Below are positions 11,822 to 30,139 of a DNA stretch of 64,000 nucleotides, piece by piece. The notes beneath the pieces are model-generated. The model ran no database searches and had not been told where the DNA came from. It was given only the letters and a program-made list of their open reading frames with translations. The stretch covers positions 62,001-126,000 of the forward strand of contig NZ_LUTS01000006.1 in assembly GCF_001597735.1 (NCBI RefSeq), read 5' to 3'. The position numbers and the translations under genes are program-made. The stretch is from Neptuniibacter pectenicola. Its GTDB lineage: Bacteria > Pseudomonadota > Gammaproteobacteria > Pseudomonadales > Balneatricaceae. Each line of letters opens with the position of its first letter. The stretch's first letter is position 1.

Positions 11822-13162
11822 ATGAATGATTCTACGTTGTCCGATACCGAGTTAGCTGCAGTGCTTGATGCGTTTTCTGAGCCTGCCGCTGTGCTGTCGG
11901 CTGATTACTTAGTCATCGCCGCAAATCAGGCGTACCGAGATCATTATCTGCAATCGGACAGCGTTATTGGACAACACTGTTATCAAGTGTCTCATGGTTA
12001 TCAACGCCCTTGTGACCAAGAGGGTGAATCCTGTCCTTTGCAGCGCTGCAGGCAAACCGGATTACGGCAAAGGGACCTTCACTTACACAACACCCGTCAT
12101 GGGCAAGAACATGTGGATGTTGAGTTGGTACCTATTCCTGTCGGTGTTAAAGAGCCCTTGTACTTTCTTGAGGTGATGCACTTCGTTAAAGTTGCTAATG
12201 CGAAGCCCGAAGGGGAGGGGCTCGTGGGGAGCTCTAAAGTATTTAATCACATGGTTTCCCTGATTCAGCGCGCGGCACCTAGCATGATTTCTGTTTTGTT
12301 ACTGGGAGAATCGGGTACAGGTAAAGAGCTGGTGGCTAAAGCGCTTCACTCCGCAAGTAAGCGATCGAAGCAACCTTTTGTCACCGTCGAATGCTCAGGT
12401 TTAAGTGAAAGCCTGTTTGAAAGTGAGATGTTTGGGCATGAAAAAGGTGCATTTACAGGAGCGATCAATCGTAAAGAGGGGTTAGTAACTGCCGCGCGAG
12501 GGGGAACGCTTTTTCTCGATGAGGTGGGCGATATTCCGCTTAGCTTGCAAGTGAAACTCTTACGGCTTATTGAAACCGGTACTTACCGTTCAGTGGGAGG
12601 CGTCGAATTAAAACATGCTGATTTTAGGTTGATCTGTGCAACCCATCGCGATTTAACTGAAAGTGTTAAAGAGGGGCGTTTTCGGCAAGATCTGTATTAT
12701 CGAATCAGTCCCTTTCCGATAACCTTACCCTCATTAAGCGAGCGCGCTGAAGATATCCCGTTATTAGTGGAGATCTTACTTAAACGGCTTACTGACGAGG
12801 CCGATATACCTCATACTGAAGCGGTTAAGGTGAGCGCCGATGCGATGGCTTATCTTAAAGCTTACTCTTTCCCTGGTAATATCCGTGAGTTGAGAAATAT
12901 TTTAGAGCGAGCGCTCCTTCTCGCTGATTATCAAATTATTACACCTGAGCATCTGCCTGAAAATATACGACTACCCCAGCAGGTGAGCACGTTCCTTAGT
13001 ATAAACGCAGACAGTATTGATGGCCTGATTCCTTTAGCTGAGCTGGAATCTGTCTATTTAACACAGGTTAAACAAAACACCTCGCTTAAAAATAATGAGC
13101 TGGCGAGTAAGTTGGGTGTCAGTGAACGAACACTTTACCGAAAGCTACAAGGGTTGCCATAA
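11822..13162 (+). CDS. PAS-domain sigma-54-dependent transcriptional activator, likely Sox regulator
   Basis: About 446 residues. The PAS sensor (about 10-120) carries a cysteine/histidine cluster [20 protein letters not shown]. The AAA+ sigma-54 activator domain has Walker A GESGTGKE, the sigma-54 contact loop GAFTGA and Walker [11 protein letters not shown]. The C-terminus is a Fis-type helix-turn-helix ([19 protein letters not shown]). Such activators drive RpoN promoters. It ends 185 bases before soxC on the same strand, so control of the sox genes in response to a sulfur or redox signal is a reasonable inference. I could not find a convincing -24/-12 element. The ATG at 11822 has a weak ribosome site. 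Confidence 0.9.
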
Positions 13163-13290
13163 GCGAGGTGTTTGCGTTGTGTTAAGGCATAGTTCTATTT
13201 CTTAATATAAGTTAATTCTATATAAGTAATTATTATATTAGCTATATACGATGGTCGAATTCTTATATATGCGCTACTGGCATATGGTTA

Positions 13291-13329
13291 TACCTAAAAA
13301 CAATATAAGAATAAAAAGTGTTTTAGGTA
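13291..13329. promoter_or_regulatory. Inverted repeat in the soxC leader
   Basis: Perfect 9-bp arms TACCTAAAA (13291-13299) and TTTTAGGTA (13321-13329) separated by 21 AT-rich bases end just before the soxC ribosome binding site (GGAGG at 13338). It could be an operator or an mRNA hairpin. The upstream stretch 13180-13290 is very AT-rich. Confidence 0.45.
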
Positions 13330-13347
13330 CGCCAGTTGGAGGCATCA

Positions 13348-14682
13348 ATGTCGAAGATCATCAAAGGGCCCAACACGCGTGAATTGATGGAGCAGATGGT
13401 TCAAGAATCAGAACATCTGTCGATTAATGATCGTCGTGACTTTCTACGGAAGGGGGTGGTCGCTGCAGCGGGTATAGCGGCAACTACATTTGCAGGGCGC
13501 TCAATTTCCGCAGAAATCAATCCCGCCAACCTACCTCCCAATGAACCTGCATGGGGTAAACAGTTAGGTCATGGTGTTGTCGAACAGCCTTATGGTTTAC
13601 CGTCTACGTTTGAAAAGCAGGTCGTACGCCGAACCGTTCCATGGTTGACGGCGGACTCTATTGCATCTATCTCAATGACCCCCCTACAAGACCTGAAGGG
13701 AATCATCACCCCGAATGGGCTGGTTTTTGAGCGTTACCATGGTGGTGTGCCCCAGATTAATCCAGATGAACATCGTTTGATTCTTCATGGCTTAGTCGAG
13801 CGTCCTCTTATTTTTACCATGGAAGACCTTATGCGTTTTCCATCGGTATCAGAAATTAAATTCATCGAATGTCCTGCGAATGGTGGGATGGAGTGGAAAG
13901 GGGCGCAAATGGAAGCCCTGCAGTTTACCCACGGTATGCTGAGCTGTTGTGAATGGACCGGTGTTCCGCTTCGCGTTTTACTTGAGGAAGCGGGGGTTAA
14001 GCCTGAAGGTAAATGGATCTTAGCGGAAGGGGCTGATGGCGCACATATGAGTCGCTCTATCCCGTTAGAAAAAGCGTTAGAAGATACCCTTGTTGTTTAT
14101 GCCCAAAATGGTGAAATGCTCCGTCCAGAACAGGGGTACCCTTTGCGCTTATTAAACCCAGGGTGGGAAGGTAATACATCCATTAAATGGCTGCGTCGTT
14201 TAGAGGTGGGAGATCAGCCTTGGTACCATCGGGAAGAGACCTCTAAATATACCGATTTAATGCCTGATGGCCGCGCCCGTAAATTTACCTTTGTGCAAGA
14301 AACGAATTCCGTTATCACCAGCCCGTGCCCTGAAAAACCACTGGTTAAGCCCGGTTTCGTTGAGATCGAAGGGTTAGCATGGTCTGGGCGAGGAAAGATT
14401 AAGCATGTGGATATATCGTTTGATGGTGGTGTGAGTTGGGTACCTGCTAAGTTAAAGGGGCTTGTACTGGATAAAGCGTTAACGCGTTTTAGCCTAGTAA
14501 CTAAATGGACCGGACAGCCTTGGTTACTGCAATCGCGTTCAGTGGATGAAACCGGTTATGTGCAACCGACCTTAAGTCAGTTGCGTGAAGTACGTGGGGG
14601 CAACTCTATCTACCATAAAAACTCTATACACACGTGGAAAGTTGCACCAACAGGGGAGGTTACCAATGTTCAAATTACGTGA
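13348..14682 (+). CDS. soxC: Sulfane dehydrogenase subunit SoxC (molybdopterin)
   Basis: 444 residues of the sulfite oxidase family. A twin-arginine-type export region (RRDFLRKGVVAAAGIAATTF, about 30-50) carries a folded molybdenum protein to the periplasm. The Moco domain has the cysteine-containing block FIECPANGG and the dimerisation domain follows (HVDISFDGGVSW). SoxC with SoxD removes six electrons from the SoxY-bound sulfane sulfur, so complete thiosulfate oxidation without sulfur globules is predicted. GGAGG lies 5 bases before the ATG at 13348. It overlaps soxD by 17 bases. Confidence 0.96.
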   Translation: MSKIIKGPNTRELMEQMVQESEHLSINDRRDFLRKGVVAAAGIAATTFAGRSISAEINPANLPPNEPAWGKQLGHGVVEQPYGLPSTFEKQVVRRTVPWLTADSIASISMTPLQDLKGIITPNGLVFERYHGGVPQINPDEHRLILHGLVERPLIFTMEDLMRFPSVSEIKFIECPANGGMEWKGAQMEALQFTHGMLSCCEWTGVPLRVLLEEAGVKPEGKWILAEGADGAHMSRSIPLEKALEDTLVVYAQNGEMLRPEQGYPLRLLNPGWEGNTSIKWLRRLEVGDQPWYHREETSKYTDLMPDGRARKFTFVQETNSVITSPCPEKPLVKPGFVEIEGLAWSGRGKIKHVDISFDGGVSWVPAKLKGLVLDKALTRFSLVTKWTGQPWLLQSRSVDETGYVQPTLSQLREVRGGNSIYHKNSIHTWKVAPTGEVTNVQIT

Positions 14683-24869: not shown

Positions 24870-25367
24870 TTAATTGTGGTGCATATGCTCATGTTCGTTT
24901 TTAGGCATGTTTTCAGACGCGTGGTGCATCATACCGCTCATGACTTTTTTCACGGGGAGTGTCAACACGTGTGAGCTGCCATCGGAAAAGTCCAAGGTTA
25001 GGTCAACCTCTTGCCCTTCGATTAGGTCTTTATTTAAACCAATCAGCATTATATGAAAACCACCGGGCTGAAGCGTTGCGGTGCCGTTAGCGGGGATATC
25101 CACTTTATCCACTTGGCGCATCTGCATCACACCGTCATTATTTGTATGGGTGTGCAGCTCCACGCTTTTTGCTATCGATGAACGACCCGCAATAAGCGAA
25201 ACCGATTCTGGTGCATCGTTTTTAAGGATCATAAATGAAGCGCTCATCATCTGGCCGGGCGGGATAGCACGGACATAAGCATTTTCAACCGTCACCTCTG
25301 CAGCGGCACTCATTGCCGTTAGGCCTAATAGGGCGGTTAAGCCTAGTTGTTTAATTCGCGTATTCAT
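24870..25367 (-). CDS. Periplasmic copper chaperone PCu(A)C
   Basis: 165 residues with a signal peptide. The copper-binding signature H-x10-M-x21-H-x-M is exact: H72, M83, H105, M107. The C-terminus is a Met/His-rich tail (KNEHEHMHHN), which may add copper binding. PCuAC passes Cu(I) to the CuA or CuB site of cytochrome oxidase, usually with Sco. It is the last gene of a minus-strand run with sco, separated by 15 bases. Confidence 0.93.
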   Translation of the reverse strand: MNTRIKQLGLTALLGLTAMSAAAEVTVENAYVRAIPPGQMMSASFMILKNDAPESVSLIAGRSSIAKSVELHTHTNNDGVMQMRQVDKVDIPANGTATLQPGGFHIMLIGLNKDLIEGQEVDLTLDFSDGSSHVLTLPVKKVMSGMMHHASENMPKNEHEHMHHN

Positions 25368-25382
25368 TATGAATGGGTTCCT

Positions 25383-25973
25383 TTACAGTAAATTACGAAT
25401 TTCGGACGTGAGCTTATTAGGATTGGTTGCATGGGCGAGGACTTTTGCAAGCTTGCCATCAGGGCCAATGAGATACAGTTTTGATGAATGATCTACAGCA
25501 TAACCCATGACTGAGTTTTCTAAATCAACCATGCGGTAAAAGGCACCATACTGTTTTACCACGTGGTCTATTGTGGCTCTATCTGCCGTCGCGCCGTAGA
25601 AATTATCATGGAAATAATGGGTATATTTGGCAAGTTTTTCCGTTGAATCCCGGTCGGGATCAACGCTCATAAAAATACCCACCACCTGTTTTTGTTCATC
25701 TTCAGACAGGTTATTTAAACCTTGGGCAGCGACGGACAGAGCGGTAGGGCATATATCGGGGCAGGAGGCGTAACCGATAAAAAACAGAACCACTTTGCCT
25801 TTGAAGTCTTCAAGTTTTATTTCGCCTTTAGCCGATTGCAGTGTGAAGTTACCACCAAGCTGCTCGCCTAGGGCGACTCTATCTTCAATGGGTTGAGGAC
25901 GGAAATAAAACGCTATTACAACACCCGCTAGCATAACGGCGGTGAGTAAAAGAAGGTTACGGAGGGTTTTCAC
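25383..25973 (-). CDS. SCO1/SenC family copper chaperone
   Basis: 196 residues. One N-terminal membrane anchor (about 6-24) then a thioredoxin fold with the copper-binding pair C71-x3-C75 (GYASCPDICPT) and H162 (VDHSSKLYL). SCO proteins deliver copper or reduce the cysteines at the CuA site of cytochrome c oxidase subunit II. Neighbours on the same strand are PCuAC downstream and a Cys-containing membrane protein upstream. Confidence 0.95.
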   Translation of the reverse strand: MKTLRNLLLLTAVMLAGVVIAFYFRPQPIEDRVALGEQLGGNFTLQSAKGEIKLEDFKGKVVLFFIGYASCPDICPTALSVAAQGLNNLSEDEQKQVVGIFMSVDPDRDSTEKLAKYTHYFHDNFYGATADRATIDHVVKQYGAFYRMVDLENSVMGYAVDHSSKLYLIGPDGKLAKVLAHATNPNKLTSEIRNLL

Positions 25974-26012
25974 TATGGGTTACCTATACTTAACATCATT
26001 TAAACGCGTATT

Positions 26013-26498
26013 TTATTGGGCGTCGAAGAAAAAATCGGCTTGGGTTAATCTACCTTGATGCTCGGTAATAACCGATGTTACCCACGTCATTTTACCGGTA
26101 GTACACACGCCTAGGACCACTTCACCTTGCCATAGGTCATCCTGTCCCGCGACTTTACTCAGCATAACTTGATTGAGCCCCATGAACATGTCTCGCCCTT
26201 TTAAATCTAACATCACTTGATCCGCCGCAATATTTTCAAGCTTCACCTCAAAGGTTAAAGGGGTGGCTGCGCTAATCGCCTGATTGTTAATTTTAAGACT
26301 AATTGCGCTCAGGTTATCACGGGCTTCACAGAATGATTGGGTTAGTTCGCATTCGGGTGTTGACTGTAAAATACGCGTTTGTGGGGGTGTATTTTGCAGT
26401 AACTTGGGTACATATATGATGGAACCTAAGCCGAGGATGATTGCGAGTATAATCACCACTTGAAGGAGATGAGGGCGCTTACCCTTGGTTTGATTCAT
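26013..26498 (-). CDS. Membrane-anchored conserved hypothetical protein of the copper-delivery cluster
   Basis: 161 residues. A single N-terminal transmembrane helix (about 12-32) anchors a periplasmic beta-rich domain. It has three cysteines, CELTQSFC near residues 50-57 and a late VLGVCTTGKMTW, plus a Met-rich stretch KGRDMFMGLNQVML. The layout resembles FixH-like small proteins, but I cannot assign a family with certainty. Position in tandem with sco and PCuAC and the Cys/Met content suggest a role in copper handling for cytochrome oxidase assembly. Confidence 0.78.
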   Translation of the reverse strand: MNQTKGKRPHLLQVVIILAIILGLGSIIYVPKLLQNTPPQTRILQSTPECELTQSFCEARDNLSAISLKINNQAISAATPLTFEVKLENIAADQVMLDLKGRDMFMGLNQVMLSKVAGQDDLWQGEVVLGVCTTGKMTWVTSVITEHQGRLTQADFFFDAQ

Positions 26499-26585
26499 TA
26501 TATAACCTGTCCCGAGTGCTGCTATATTTTACTGAGTGAATGGAGTGTAAGAGAAGTGACAAATTGTCGCATAAAGGGTTCAACT

Positions 26586-27614
26586 TTACTGCGTAGAAAT
26601 ATGCAGGCAGTTAATTAGCTTTTGTTGGATCTCATCTTTTTCAAATGCACGGGTTGTGATTATCTCTACACGGGAGTCGCGACGGTAAGTGATAGGGGAT
26701 ACCGTGGTCTCATGGATCGCCTGATTATATAGCACCCATCCCTCTTGAGTATGAAAAACCCCTTTAATTCGCTGAATGTTAGGTAGGCTTTGTAAGTAGG
26801 GGATGAGTTTGTCGGCGATGAAAATATCGCTTTTATTAAACACCCAGCCGCAACTATAAAGGCCGTGGTTACTCCCTTCTTTAGATAAAGGGAGACCCGC
26901 TTTAGGTTGAAGCTGGAACAGCGGTTGAGCTTGGGGCGCGGTTGGGTGTTCGGCTTGATCAGGGATTGTATGCGCGTCTGGAAACAGGGCCTGACACTCA
27001 TCTTTTCGAATAAGATCAAGCAGACTAAGTGATATCTGCCCAGCGATGCTTTTGACCACCGCTTGTTTCGGTGGGAATAAGCTGTTCGATCGTTCCTCCG
27101 CGAATGAGGTTTGTGCCTCGCTGGCTAAATCAATTTTATTGAGCACGATAACATCGGCTAAATTAATCTGGTCTTGGAAGGTTGGGTTACTGATCACTTC
27201 AGGGTTATCTAAGGCCCTAGGGTCAAGTAAGCAAATAACCGAACGCAGATCTAAAACCTCTTTGAAATTGTCATTTTGCAACGTATCAATAATGCCCGCT
27301 GGATGACCAATTCCTGTAGGTTCAATCAGTAAACGGTCCGGTTTTGATCGGCGCAGTAAGAGCGCAAGAGTGGATGTTAACGCTGGGCCTAACGCGCAGC
27401 AGATACATCCGCCCGCCAGCTCTTTAATAGCGACCCCTTCAGTCTGGTTCTCCATGACCGCTTGATCAATACCAATCTGCCCAAACTCGTTCACTAAGAT
27501 CGCCCATGTTTCATCGGCAGGTTTTTGGGCTAACAGTGAGTTGATTGCTGTTGTTTTTCCTACACCAAGGAAGCCGGTAATGATATTCGTAGGGATATTG
27601 GCTAATTTAGACAT
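26586..27614 (-). CDS. CobW/COG0523 family GTPase (G3E metallochaperone)
   Basis: 342 residues. Walker A GFLGVGKT (14-21), the metal-binding CxCC motif in GGCICCALG (C70, C72, C73), LIEPTGIGHP and the GTP-specificity motif NKID. A CobW C-terminal domain follows (about 240-340), without a long His-rich linker. COG0523 proteins move zinc, cobalt or other metals into enzymes. The start overlaps the upstream DMT transporter end by 8 bases, so they are translationally coupled. No Zur box is evident upstream, unlike the DUF1826 gene at 39990. Confidence 0.92.
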   Translation of the reverse strand: MSKLANIPTNIITGFLGVGKTTAINSLLAQKPADETWAILVNEFGQIGIDQAVMENQTEGVAIKELAGGCICCALGPALTSTLALLLRRSKPDRLLIEPTGIGHPAGIIDTLQNDNFKEVLDLRSVICLLDPRALDNPEVISNPTFQDQINLADVIVLNKIDLASEAQTSFAEERSNSLFPPKQAVVKSIAGQISLSLLDLIRKDECQALFPDAHTIPDQAEHPTAPQAQPLFQLQPKAGLPLSKEGSNHGLYSCGWVFNKSDIFIADKLIPYLQSLPNIQRIKGVFHTQEGWVLYNQAIHETTVSPITYRRDSRVEIITTRAFEKDEIQQKLINCLHISTQ

Positions 27615-28497
27615 GGTGTTTATCTCTTTTATATAACGAGGGTAGTTGTGATAACAGCATACCCAACAGCATTAAACTGCAGCCTAACAGGCCAAACAGG
27701 GTAAAGCCTTCATTGAGGATTAGCCAACCGCCAAAGGCGGCGGCGACCGCTTCTAAACTCATAATAATTGCGGCGTGCGCCGGTGGCGAATGCTTCTGCG
27801 CTACAATTTGTAGGGTATAAGCAATCCCAACAGAAATGAGGCCAGCATAAGCGATTGGTGCCCATGAGTTAAGAGCATTGTGTAGCGTTAATTGTTCAGT
27901 TTCTAAAATAAGTGCAACAAGAGCGCTCAGTGCAGCACAGACTAAAAACTGGGTAATGGCTAAGCGTAGGTTATCAACCTTGGGAGCGAGTTTAGCAATT
28001 AATAGTACATGGGCAGCCCAGCAAAGTGCTCCACAGATTTCCAACACATCCCCTTGGTTGACCTGAGTGAGTTGGTGAAAACTTAATAGATAGAGTCCAA
28101 TCACCGCTAGGCTACCACCGATCCACGTATTTATATTGGTTTGCTGGCCGAACCACAACCCAAGCAATGGGACAAAAATAATATAAAGGCCTGTAATAAA
28201 ACCCGCATTGCCTGCGGTGGTATAAACGAGCCCCGCTTGTTGAAACGAGGCACCGGCAAAAAGTACGCCCCCCGCCATTAATCCACTGACGAATAAACGT
28301 TTATGGCAATGATCTGCTGGGGCTTTAAAGAAAAAAAGTAAAGGTAGGAGGGAGAGTGCGCCGAGCAAAAAACGTAAGGTATTAAAACCAAAAGGCCCAA
28401 GCAGTTCGAGGCCTAAACGCTGCGCAACAAAAGCAAACCCCCAAATAATGGCGACAAGTAATAAAAGAACGTCAGCTTGTAGTTTTTTAGCGTGCAT
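27607..28497 (-). CDS. EamA/DMT-family transporter
   Basis: 296 residues with about ten predicted membrane helices arranged as two EamA halves, each with the typical N-terminal WGFAFVAQR-like and later helices ending LGMLLSQLPSL. DMT carriers export or import small metabolites; the substrate cannot be read from sequence. Coupling with a COG0523 GTPase suggests metal or cofactor homeostasis. Its start is about 125 bases from the Fur-box promoter that fires in the opposite direction. Confidence 0.92.
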   Translation of the reverse strand: MHAKKLQADVLLLLVAIIWGFAFVAQRLGLELLGPFGFNTLRFLLGALSLLPLLFFFKAPADHCHKRLFVSGLMAGGVLFAGASFQQAGLVYTTAGNAGFITGLYIIFVPLLGLWFGQQTNINTWIGGSLAVIGLYLLSFHQLTQVNQGDVLEICGALCWAAHVLLIAKLAPKVDNLRLAITQFLVCAALSALVALILETEQLTLHNALNSWAPIAYAGLISVGIAYTLQIVAQKHSPPAHAAIIMSLEAVAAAFGGWLILNEGFTLFGLLGCSLMLLGMLLSQLPSLYKRDKHHV

Positions 28498-28620
28498 AAG
28501 GTCTGCTGTGCTCGTTAAAGCCTTTAAGGTTATGTGGGGTTGTACCGTATTGGAGTAGCGAGTGTACAGATTGTATGGATAAGGTTGAATGCTTAATAGG
28601 TAAGGGAATAAATTTATTGT

Positions 28621-28657
28621 AAATAGTGTTGCAAATCATTCTCAATTGCAATAATAT
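28621..28657 (+). promoter_or_regulatory. Fur-box promoter of small RNA 1
   Basis: TTGCAA (28629-28634), a 17-base spacer and TAATAT (28652-28657) form a good sigma-70 promoter. On the opposite strand the spacer reads TGAGAATGATTTGCA, matching the Fur 7-1-7 consensus TGATAATnATTATCA at 11 of 14 positions (28630-28644). The same 24-base block recurs exactly at 28914-28937. Iron-bound Fur would cover the -35 element. Confidence 0.8.
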
Positions 28658-28663
28658 CGAACT

Positions 28664-28853
28664 CGCTCATAAGTGATAAGCAGTGGACGACCTCACCTCA
28701 CAACACTGCTTTAGCTTGCTGAATTAACTATCGCTCACATGGTTAATTTAGCGAACATTGATACTCCCCCTCGATTATCAATGTCTTAAACTGAAAAGTG
28801 CTCACCAATTCAGTTTAAACCGATAAGCCGGACCTTTAGGTCCGGCTTTTTTT
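28664..28853 (+). ncRNA. Putative Fur-repressed small RNA 1 (four stem-loops plus terminator)
   Basis: About 190 nt from the predicted start (7-8 bases after the -10) to an intrinsic terminator. No open frame of note. Stem 1: 28678-28685 with 28704-28711, 8 bp, loop GACGACCTCACCTCACAA. Stem 2: 28718-28728 with 28742-28752, 11 bp with one G-U, loop TATCGCTCACATG. Stem 3: 28755-28763 with 28776-28784, 9 bp, loop CTCCCCCTCGAT. Stem 4: 28786-28795 with 28809-28818, 10 bp, loop AAGTGCTCACCAA. Every loop carries a CUC or CUCAC motif able to pair with G/A-rich ribosome sites. By promoter and layout it resembles iron-responsive sRNAs such as PrrF or RyhB, but I see no clear sequence homology. Confidence 0.78.
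28825..28853 (+). terminator. Terminator of small RNA 1
   Basis: AAGCCGGACC and GGTCCGGCTT form a perfect 10-bp stem with loop TTTA, followed by a T run. No protein gene lies upstream within reach on this strand, so it must end a noncoding transcript. Confidence 0.93.
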
Positions 28854-28913
28854 ATGGGCGGGGTTTAAGGTAAGGGATATTCATGGATAGAGACGCTTAT
28901 AAATAATTATTGC

Positions 28914-28949
28914 AAATAGTGTTGCAAATCATTCTCATTCGTATATTAT
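28914..28949 (+). promoter_or_regulatory. Fur-box promoter of small RNA 2
   Basis: The 24-base block AAATAGTGTTGCAAATCATT plus CTCA (28914-28937) is identical to that at 28621-28644. TTGCAA (28922-28927) is followed after 16 bases by TATTAT (28944-28949). The Fur-box core TGCAAATCATTCTCA is at 28923-28937. Confidence 0.8.
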
Positions 28950-28956
28950 CTATCTT

Positions 28957-29167
28957 AACACGTCAGACGGCAGGCTCCCCTCACAAGTTGTGCCGTCGTG
29001 CTTTAGTAATATTGCATACGCGTGTGTGCATTCCACGTTAGCGTTGTGTTCAGGCCTCAACGCTATACGTTGGAAGCGGAGAATCGATTTGGATGCTCCA
29101 AGCACAAGGCTCTTGTCATTAAAGCAAATTGCTTAACCGGACCCCTAAGGGGCTCCGGTTTTTTTTT
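28957..29167 (+). ncRNA. Putative Fur-repressed small RNA 2
   Basis: About 210 nt, from the promoter to an intrinsic terminator. Stem 1: GACGGCA (28966-28972) with TGCCGTC (28991-28997), loop GGCTCCCCTCACAAGTTG; this loop shares the octamer CCTCACAA with loop 1 of small RNA 1 (28979-28986 and 28696-28703). Further hairpins: TGCATAC/GTGTGCA (29013-29030), TAGCGTTG/CAACGCTA (29039-29065), TTGGA/TCCAA (29089-29101) and ACAAG/CTTGT (29104-29116). Both RNAs have TGCTTTAG just after stem 1. Shared promoter and seed-like loop with a diverged body suggest a tandem pair with partly different targets. Confidence 0.75.
29135..29167 (+). terminator. Terminator of small RNA 2
   Basis: AACCGGA/TCCGGTT and CCCC/GGGG form an 11-bp stem with a single bulged C and loop TAA, followed by T. 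It precedes the stop of the convergent LysR gene by about 35 bases. Confidence 0.92.
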
Positions 29168-29200
29168 GCTAAAAATTGTTAATAGGCTACGTTTTGCGCG

Positions 29201-30139
29201 TTAATAGGGTGGGGCCATTTCAGCATCTTTGTGGCAGTTTCTTATAACATTTAAAAAGAGTTCCCGTGCCCGATTGGGTTGTGTCGAAATTTTACTGATG
29301 ACAGCCATGCCTAAACGGAAATGTCGGCAGGATGTGGCAACGGGTTTGAGTTCCCCTTTTTTTACATAGGGCAGTGCAACCGCTTCAGGCAGAAAACCGA
29401 TGTAGCATCCTGATAATAGAAGCGAAACCCTAGCCTCGTAATGATAGGAGCTTGCACTGAGGTTCATCTGCGCTAACTGGTGGTAAACCTCATCATGGGG
29501 GGTTAAACCCGCATGGATCAATTTGTATTGGTTGATCACCTGTTCAGTGATCTCTTTCTCTTCCATTGTAAATAATGGGTGTTGGTTGCCACAGTAAATG
29601 TAATGTTGATCACTAAATAGGTGGATATAGTTGAGGCTGGCAAACTTTCGGTGGTAGGGGATAATCGCTATATCAATTTGGTTGTTCATCACCATCTGTT
29701 CCATTACTTTCATGTGTTGTACTTCTACATGAAGTTGCACTTCCGGCGCTTGCATATGAAATTCACGATAAATTTCAGGCAGCTTACAACGATCATCCGT
29801 ACTTAATGTGTCACTTAGTGCAATCTTTAAGTTGCCCGCAGGATGTTCCCCTAAATTATTGAGGGTATTTCTGAATAGCTCCATACGTTCTAATAATTGA
29901 ACGGTTTGGTCGTAAACAACATGTCCCTCTTCGGTCAGAGAAAAGCCTGCGCGTCCACGTTTACATAAACTAATATTAAGGCGGTTTTCTAAGGCGGCAA
30001 TATGGTTGCTGATGGTGGGGCGGCTTATATTCAGCTCGGCTTCGGCAGCGGAAAACCCGCCACATTCAACAACGGCTTTGAATATTTTAAGCTGCTTAAT
30101 TTCAATGTCGCCAAGTTGGCCTAACGCGAATTTAACCAT
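29201..30139 (-). CDS. LysR-family regulator, paralogue of the one at 33779
   Basis: 312 residues. LysR helix-turn-helix FSAAEAELNISRPTISNHIA (about 29-48) and substrate-binding domain (about 105-300). It closely resembles the regulator at 33779-34702: both read FKAVVE-GGF, then CKRGRAGFSLTEEG/CERGRAGFSLTEHG. It is divergent from the TRAP transporter genes (250-base gap) and so likely controls them in response to the imported compound. Its stop is about 35 bases from the convergent small RNA 2 terminator. Confidence 0.93.
   Translation of the reverse strand: MVKFALGQLGDIEIKQLKIFKAVVECGGFSAAEAELNISRPTISNHIAALENRLNISLCKRGRAGFSLTEEGHVVYDQTVQLLERMELFRNTLNNLGEHPAGNLKIALSDTLSTDDRCKLPEIYREFHMQAPEVQLHVEVQHMKVMEQMVMNNQIDIAIIPYHRKFASLNYIHLFSDQHYIYCGNQHPLFTMEEKEITEQVINQYKLIHAGLTPHDEVYHQLAQMNLSASSYHYEARVSLLLSGCYIGFLPEAVALPYVKKGELKPVATSCRHFRLGMAVISKISTQPNRARELFLNVIRNCHKDAEMAPPY

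Follow-up and report, generated by a model that had tools for sequence, protein, structure and literature searches.

Two small regulatory RNAs are very probably produced under iron scarcity from the stretch of Neptuniibacter pectenicola DNA examined in this study (hereafter the window, 64,000 nucleotides from contig NZ_LUTS01000006.1), judging from comparison of its sequence with related genomes. The two units, here termed sRNA A and sRNA B, probably form a pair of Fur-repressed, tandem, trans-acting sRNAs belonging to a family outside Rfam, in which B would block ribosome binding on the gltA and sdhC mRNAs and A would be a diverged sibling.

Organization of the locus

The two units are located in a 703-base gap (28498-29200) flanked by an EamA gene and a LysR gene, both identified by Pfam and both on the minus strand. 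Two promoter-terminator units lie inside this gap, both on the plus strand, each with an identical 24-base block. The sequence-only reading of this DNA had described duplicated blocks, a strong intrinsic terminator for each unit and no protein gene, and all three descriptions hold. The only open reading frame of at least 60 amino acids in the gap is a 60-residue frame opening with GTG (29022-29204), which extends beyond the terminator of unit B. A protein-coding reading of the gap was ruled out because this lone frame crosses the terminator and because indels abound in the nine-genome alignment, where unit B shows many between species. The features are as follows:

27607-28497, minus strand: EamA transporter gene (Pfam)
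28621-28644, plus strand: first 24-base block, putative Fur-type operator over the sRNA A promoter; identical to 28914-28937; 11/14 against the Fur heptamer repeat
28629-28657, plus strand: predicted sRNA A promoter; -35 TTGCAA (28629-28634), -10 TAATAT (28652-28657), spacing 17
28664-28854, plus strand: sRNA A, about 190 nt; five hairpins and a terminator; start placed from the -10
28690-28701, plus strand: loop ACCUCACCUCAC of sRNA A, anti-Shine-Dalgarno-like; ACCUCAC invariant in 9/9 genomes; mean unpaired probability 0.92
28825-28854, plus strand: sRNA A terminator, intrinsic; found by the terminator scan
28914-28937, plus strand: second 24-base block, putative Fur-type operator over the sRNA B promoter; identical to 28621-28644
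28922-28949, plus strand: predicted sRNA B promoter, TTGCAA-16-TATTAT; 9/12 in the promoter scan
28957-29167, plus strand: sRNA B, about 210 nt; start placed from the -10; nine-genome alignment; core model in 10/11 genus genomes
28975-28984, plus strand: loop CUCCCCUCAC of sRNA B; conserved in the nine-genome alignment; mean unpaired probability 0.82
29108-29119, plus strand: core GGCUCUUGUCAU of sRNA B, predicted to pair with the gltA and sdhC starts; near-invariant in 28 units
29135-29167, plus strand: sRNA B terminator, intrinsic with a bulged stem; unreported by the terminator scan and read by eye
29201-30139, minus strand: LysR regulator gene (Pfam)

The promoter-region repeat extends beyond the block, with 30 of 31 positions identical between 28614-28644 and 28907-28937. 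The -10 of sRNA A reads TATTAT in some relatives, and at the position of the sRNA B terminator a hairpin and T-run are present in all nine aligned genomes. Both units fold more stably than any of 200 shuffled sequences (z-scores of -9.2 for sRNA A and -4.6 for sRNA B). The core of sRNA B is about half paired in its predicted fold (mean unpaired probability 0.48). Upstream of the sRNAs, the window also holds PCuAC copper chaperone-like and SCO1-like genes, recognized by eye, and a CobW GTPase gene identified by Pfam (24870-27614).

Conservation and distribution

When the gap was used as a DNA query, matches were found in 20 of 96 genomes (its own included), among them nine of the ten other genomes of the genus. 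A covariance model of sRNA A recovered 10 of the 11 genus genomes at E values of 1.1e-13 or better, the unit of one genome (G007) being cut by a contig end. With the model of the sRNA B core and a limit of E < 1e-6, matches came from 19 of the 116 genomes of the family: 10 Neptuniibacter, five of genus group g8 (Pontibacterium and kin) and four of g9 (which includes Marinobacterium arenosum). One genome of the same genus, G005, gave no strong match to the gap query, the sRNA A model or the B core model. Reading of weaker matches added 12 genomes with a Fur-type block and core (five g12, five g16 and two g3), and related units, often in tandem, were read in six genera and at least 31 of the 116 family genomes, a minimum given the strict filters. 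Conservation in related genomes and detection by covariance models, both proposed with the sequence-only reading, were thus observed for A and for the core of B. In an order-wide sample of 293 genomes, which holds few members of Neptuniibacter's family, matches below 1e-6 came only from G000 and G009, two Neptuniibacter genomes.

Several classes of weaker match were also read. Twelve regions with weak matches to the sRNA A model comprised seven units of the family (L130-L134, L136 and L137) and five that were not, while none of 19 further weak regions (g2, g5, g7, g11, g13, g14 and g16) had a core or Fur box by strict patterns, to which variant cores would be invisible. In G016, in G233 and at G255:C64, the stretches with sub-threshold matches to the B model had no visible Fur-type block and are apparently coding; a single sub-threshold match was found outside the family, in G391. 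An 18-base core pattern found 32 loci, 17 of them belonging to this sRNA family; the other 15 look coding, and a loose pattern for a Fur-like block was absent from 14 of these and loosely matched in one (L048).

The pattern of change among relatives differs between the two units. In sRNA A, two-sided changes occur at 27 of 57 base pairs (14.6 in shuffles) and the covariation score is 0.399 (0.196 in shuffles), values that none of 500 shuffles reached, while the loop motifs ACCUCAC, GCUCAC, CCCCUCGA and CUCAC are invariant in all nine genomes. Invariant loops amid compensating stems would be as expected for displayed pairing sites. In sRNA B, two-sided changes occur at eight of 44 predicted pairs, and the middle of the unit is variable. 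Judged by comparison and fold stability, both units very probably represent real RNAs.

Architecture and proposed origin of the siblings

The units of the window are alike in their promoter block and 5' loop, yet they are neither near-identical nor equivalent, since the core that can pair with gltA and sdhC is present in B and absent from A. The earlier description of a pair therefore survives in the sense of two siblings, but not of equivalent copies, and the family to which they belong spans several genera. A single RNA in g16 and g3 has a 5' module of the A type, with CGCUCGUAAGUG and a hairpin loop (for example CUCACCUCAC), joined to a 3' core of the B type (GGCUCUUGUCAU or GGCUCUUAUCAC). 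In g8 and g9, two core-bearing units lie near each other in nine of nine genomes examined, usually in tandem. The simplest inference is that A and B of Neptuniibacter arose by tandem duplication, after which A would have kept the 5' module and exchanged the core for further hairpins.

Other arrangements were observed at related loci. One g16 genome (G210; loci L134 and L343; C191, around 12500-13650, minus strand) carries a row of four tandem units, the fourth with a variant core, AGCTCTTGTCAT. An A-like unit in a genome of the Pontibacterium group (L011, G043:C13, around 1625-1725) has about fifteen copies of CCGCTTA in place of its 3' part. At L016 (G018:C137, around 1890-2260), a CRISPR-like array with the repeat GTGTTCCCCGCACACGCGGGGATGAACCG lies between two core-bearing units, and at L019 (505-791, minus strand) group II intron domains (RF02001 and RF01998) are found close to a tandem sRNA pair.

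Probable regulation by iron

The sequence-only reading placed a Fur box over a sigma-70 promoter at each unit. Box and promoter are both present, but the box in the window is moderate, matching 12 of 19 positions of the 19-bp consensus and 11 of 14 positions of TGATAATNATTATCA, and the sRNA A promoter matches eight of 12 positions by hand count, which is below the threshold of the promoter scan and went unreported by it. Taken alone the box is weak, because 147 sites scoring at least 11/14 against TGATAATNATTATCA occur in 1.144 Mb of the window's genome; it becomes credible because related units have a 13-14/14 box over the same promoter. Boxes were scored in the window and in units of g8, g9, g16 and g3. 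At this promoter position, the box matches 14 of 14 positions in seven of the nine g8 units scored and 13 in the other two, 13-14 in seven of eight g16 units and 11 in the remaining one, 12 in all eight g9 units, and 11 in the single g3 unit scored. Fur control of both sRNAs is likely on this comparison.

A different regulator of genuine sRNAs, such as Zur or another metal-responsive protein, can also be considered. CobW-type GTPases are often under Zur, and a gene of this type adjoins the sRNAs in the window, where it is located two genes upstream of the pair, and a CobW-like frame flanks them in g9; the moderate Fur match of the window points the same way. Against this stand the near-complete agreement of related units with the Fur consensus TGATAATNATTATCA and predicted targets that are typical of iron-sparing RNAs, and we consider control by a regulator other than Fur very improbable. 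Under Fur control, a fall in iron would cause Fur to leave its operators, and A and B would both be transcribed.

Predicted targets of sRNA B

Ranking of the core GGCUCUUGUCAU drew on 1.254 Mb of sequence (one third of the genome, including the window), in which 1095 translation starts were predicted; identities were assigned by Pfam. The best-ranked start is that of gltA, encoding citrate synthase (-18.8 kcal/mol), where the computed pairing covers AUGAUAGGAGCC over the Shine-Dalgarno sequence a few bases before the AUG. The second is sdhC (-17.9 kcal/mol), where it covers ACAAGAGCC directly before the GUG. These are followed by a phosphonate-binding protein (third) and leuD, an aconitase-type small subunit (fourth). 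The two best-ranked genes are divergent neighbours on contig C122. Pairing by B at these ribosome-binding sites would be expected to block translation of both mRNAs. Contiguous pairs number 16 (two of them G-U) with gltA and nine with sdhC in the window's genome, and 13 and 14, respectively, in Pontibacterium. With 27 nt of B as the query instead of the core, gltA ranked second and sdhC 16th. The core of B thus pairs, by computation, with starts of iron-using or TCA-cycle genes, as in the class of iron-sparing sRNAs. The ranking gives no support to sodB, a classic target of such RNAs, as a target here (best rank 51 of 1095).

It is also important to consider whether this pairing could be a coincidence, the gltA and sdhC starts being conserved for other reasons and B acting elsewhere or otherwise. 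Both sites are indeed conserved in genomes that gave no sign of such an RNA: UGAUAGGAGCC, the gltA site, is kept in G005 and in the single genome examined from each of g7, g11 and g13, and the sdhC site is likewise present in G005 and g13. However, chance would have to place two neighbouring TCA-cycle genes first and second of 1095, whereas, with 250 sampled starts for comparison, not one of 400 shuffled cores gave both genes the top places (11 placed sdhC alone at the top, and none gltA alone), and it would also have to provide the unbroken 14-pair sdhC duplex of Pontibacterium. Coincidental pairing is accordingly an improbable explanation, if less so than control by another metal regulator.

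The distribution of the sdhC site bears on the proposed role of B as well. Among genomes whose sdhC start was read, the site is present in all 20 with this exact core (nine g1, four g8, three g9 and four g16) and in three of 14 without, counts that are not independent events because the genomes are related, and that leave out four second Sdh_cyt copies (G032, G018, G254 and G021) and the split gene of G213. Genome-wide, ACAAGAGCC occurs 13 times: at sdhC, in B itself, and at 11 places apparently away from gene starts. The gltA and sdhC sites of g12 fit the core poorly. In a first survey of gltA starts, that of G255 was not found and those of G005, G021 and G043 were mis-called; a later search looked for the site itself in those same loci. 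A search of eight genomes for near-perfect complements (AATGACAAGAGCC and GTGAGGTGAGG, one mismatch allowed) gave no clear excess over reversed-pattern controls among the matches listed; the sdhC site is missed by this pattern because a one-base bulge hides it, and it came to light only when the gene start itself was read. As a separate observation, a second Sdh_cyt gene was seen in four genomes (L270, L271, L272 and L273), and the ATG starts read there lack the ACAAGAGCC site.

Candidate targets of sRNA A

sRNA A retains the 5' module of the family without the core and carries a row of C-rich, anti-Shine-Dalgarno-like loops, which may act, probably on other mRNAs. The ten best-ranked starts for one of these loops include a DyP peroxidase, a PAPS-reductase-family protein, a GltD-like Fe-S protein, a FixG-type Fe-S protein and a cytochrome c, together with proteins that do not contain iron. 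A weak enrichment test for iron proteins, as defined by a crude proxy of cysteine motifs (25 of 1095 starts), gave p = 0.001 for A loop 5 and p = 0.008 for the B loop, but a low value (p = 0.028) for a 16S anti-Shine-Dalgarno control as well.

Relation to PrrF

The window has no Rfam match at gathering cut-offs, and neither PrrF (RF00444) nor RyhB (RF00057) matches up to E = 10 in 28500-29300, with no PrrF match in G000, in agreement with the earlier remark that the RNA bodies bear no evident likeness to either. All 18 weaker Rfam hits to this interval, MicC, isrP and MicF among them, were rejected, as all are below gathering scores and most are centred on terminators. Additionally, the PrrF model found nothing up to E = 5 in seven related loci from five genus groups. 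PrrF matches at E <= 0.01 occur in 27 of 145 genomes of the order, four of them above the Rfam cut-off, and in two of the 116 family genomes (G024 and G015), neither of which has the B core; no family genome (0/116) combines a strong core match with a PrrF match. The PrrF-like RNAs of these two genomes, three in tandem in G024 (L072, C8:351900-353200) and two in G015 (L105 and L107; C208), are below the Rfam cut-off and each carries the core TCTCATCAAAGCTAATCACGGTTCTT.

These results bear on the possibility that A and B are far-diverged PrrF1 and PrrF2, of common ancestry, with a seed changed past recognition by the model. The plan is the same, with a Fur box, tandem copies and a conserved stretch just before the terminator, and PrrF-like RNAs do occur in the same order and family. 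In addition, CACGGUUCUU is common to all five of the compact g12 units and the PrrF-like RNA of G024, in each case at an equivalent position ahead of the terminator, and the two kinds of RNA could base-pair with identical positions of sdhC; for the G024 RNA, an unbroken duplex of 14 pairs with the sdhC of its own genome is possible, at bases overlapping the B site. This shared 10-mer is no longer than those of shuffled controls (10-12); it therefore hints at ancestry or at convergence on sdhC, which a shared target could bring about, and proves neither. The PrrF core UCAUCARGCUAAUCACGGUU is absent from A and B, its 10-base fragment recurs in the g12 relatives only, and the similarity of other B units to PrrF does not exceed that of shuffled sequences. 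Together with the missing model matches and the separate distribution of the two RNAs, this makes PrrF ancestry unlikely, although the 10-base fragment gives it the weight it has here.

For the favoured reading, a distinct family with B acting on gltA and sdhC, the iron-sparing role proposed for the tandem pair in the sequence-only reading is supported as far as sequence can show. A bolder version can be put forward only tentatively: that in a marine family a new sRNA family stands in for PrrF in most of the genera covered, that one seed strikes both genes of the divergent gltA-sdhC junction, and that the Neptuniibacter siblings arose by duplication and divide the labour, with B keeping the TCA-cycle seed and A, having lost it, being a multi-loop anti-Shine-Dalgarno RNA with its own iron-enzyme targets.

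If the favoured reading is true, these RNAs would provide another case of iron-sparing sRNAs, one in which the predicted seed is clean and its two targets are adjacent genes, and this in marine heterotrophs, whose growth is frequently limited by iron. Such sRNAs seem to have had several separate origins without a common sequence. PrrF-like RNAs and the family of the window appear to replace one another within one bacterial family while addressing the same few bases of sdhC, which would make the turnover of regulatory RNAs directly testable, and the unequal siblings would be an example of an sRNA that duplicated and then diverged.

Comparison with known iron-sparing and related RNAs

No description of these RNAs was found among the open-licence papers listed for Neptuniibacter, Oceanospirillales/Oceanospirillaceae, Marinobacterium, or PrrF together with Marinobacter. 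Among known systems, FsrA of Bacillus subtilis is Fur-repressed and uses C-rich segments to pair with Shine-Dalgarno regions, sdhC being one of its targets; unlike the RNAs described here, it belongs to an unrelated lineage, and the window has no match to it through Rfam. PrrF1/PrrF2 (RF00444, Pseudomonas) resemble the present pair in having a Fur-type box per unit, tandem copies and a conserved stretch before the terminator. They differ in their core, in their length (about 150 model positions, compared to about 190-210 nt for A and B) and in their similarity to each other, since the P. aeruginosa copies are tandem and 95% identical (PMC4211561), while A and B lack such near-identity and the core is confined to B. 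The likeness to RyhB (RF00057, enteric bacteria) is one of role, as it is Fur-repressed and lowers iron-using enzymes, with sdh among its targets (PMC7377471); its length and seed are different, and its model gave no match. BrrF of Burkholderia cenocepacia is described in the same paper as a low-iron sRNA unrelated in sequence to PrrF or RyhB that acts on sdhC and other TCA-cycle genes; unlike A and B, it is presented there as located with hemP, without a Fur box of its own and not in tandem (PMC7377471).

The nearest analogue in mode of action is NmsRA/NmsRB of Neisseria meningitidis, to judge from PMC5362039, in which these RNAs are tandem siblings with UC-rich anti-Shine-Dalgarno segments whose direct targets include gltA and sdhC. 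They are linked to the stringent response rather than to Fur, and the siblings are 70% identical and structurally near-identical (PMC5362039); their sequence was compared with A and B via Rfam alone. On present evidence, the best reading is that A and B represent an analogue of PrrF and RyhB from a new family, which, when iron is limiting, would keep ribosomes from binding TCA-cycle mRNAs.
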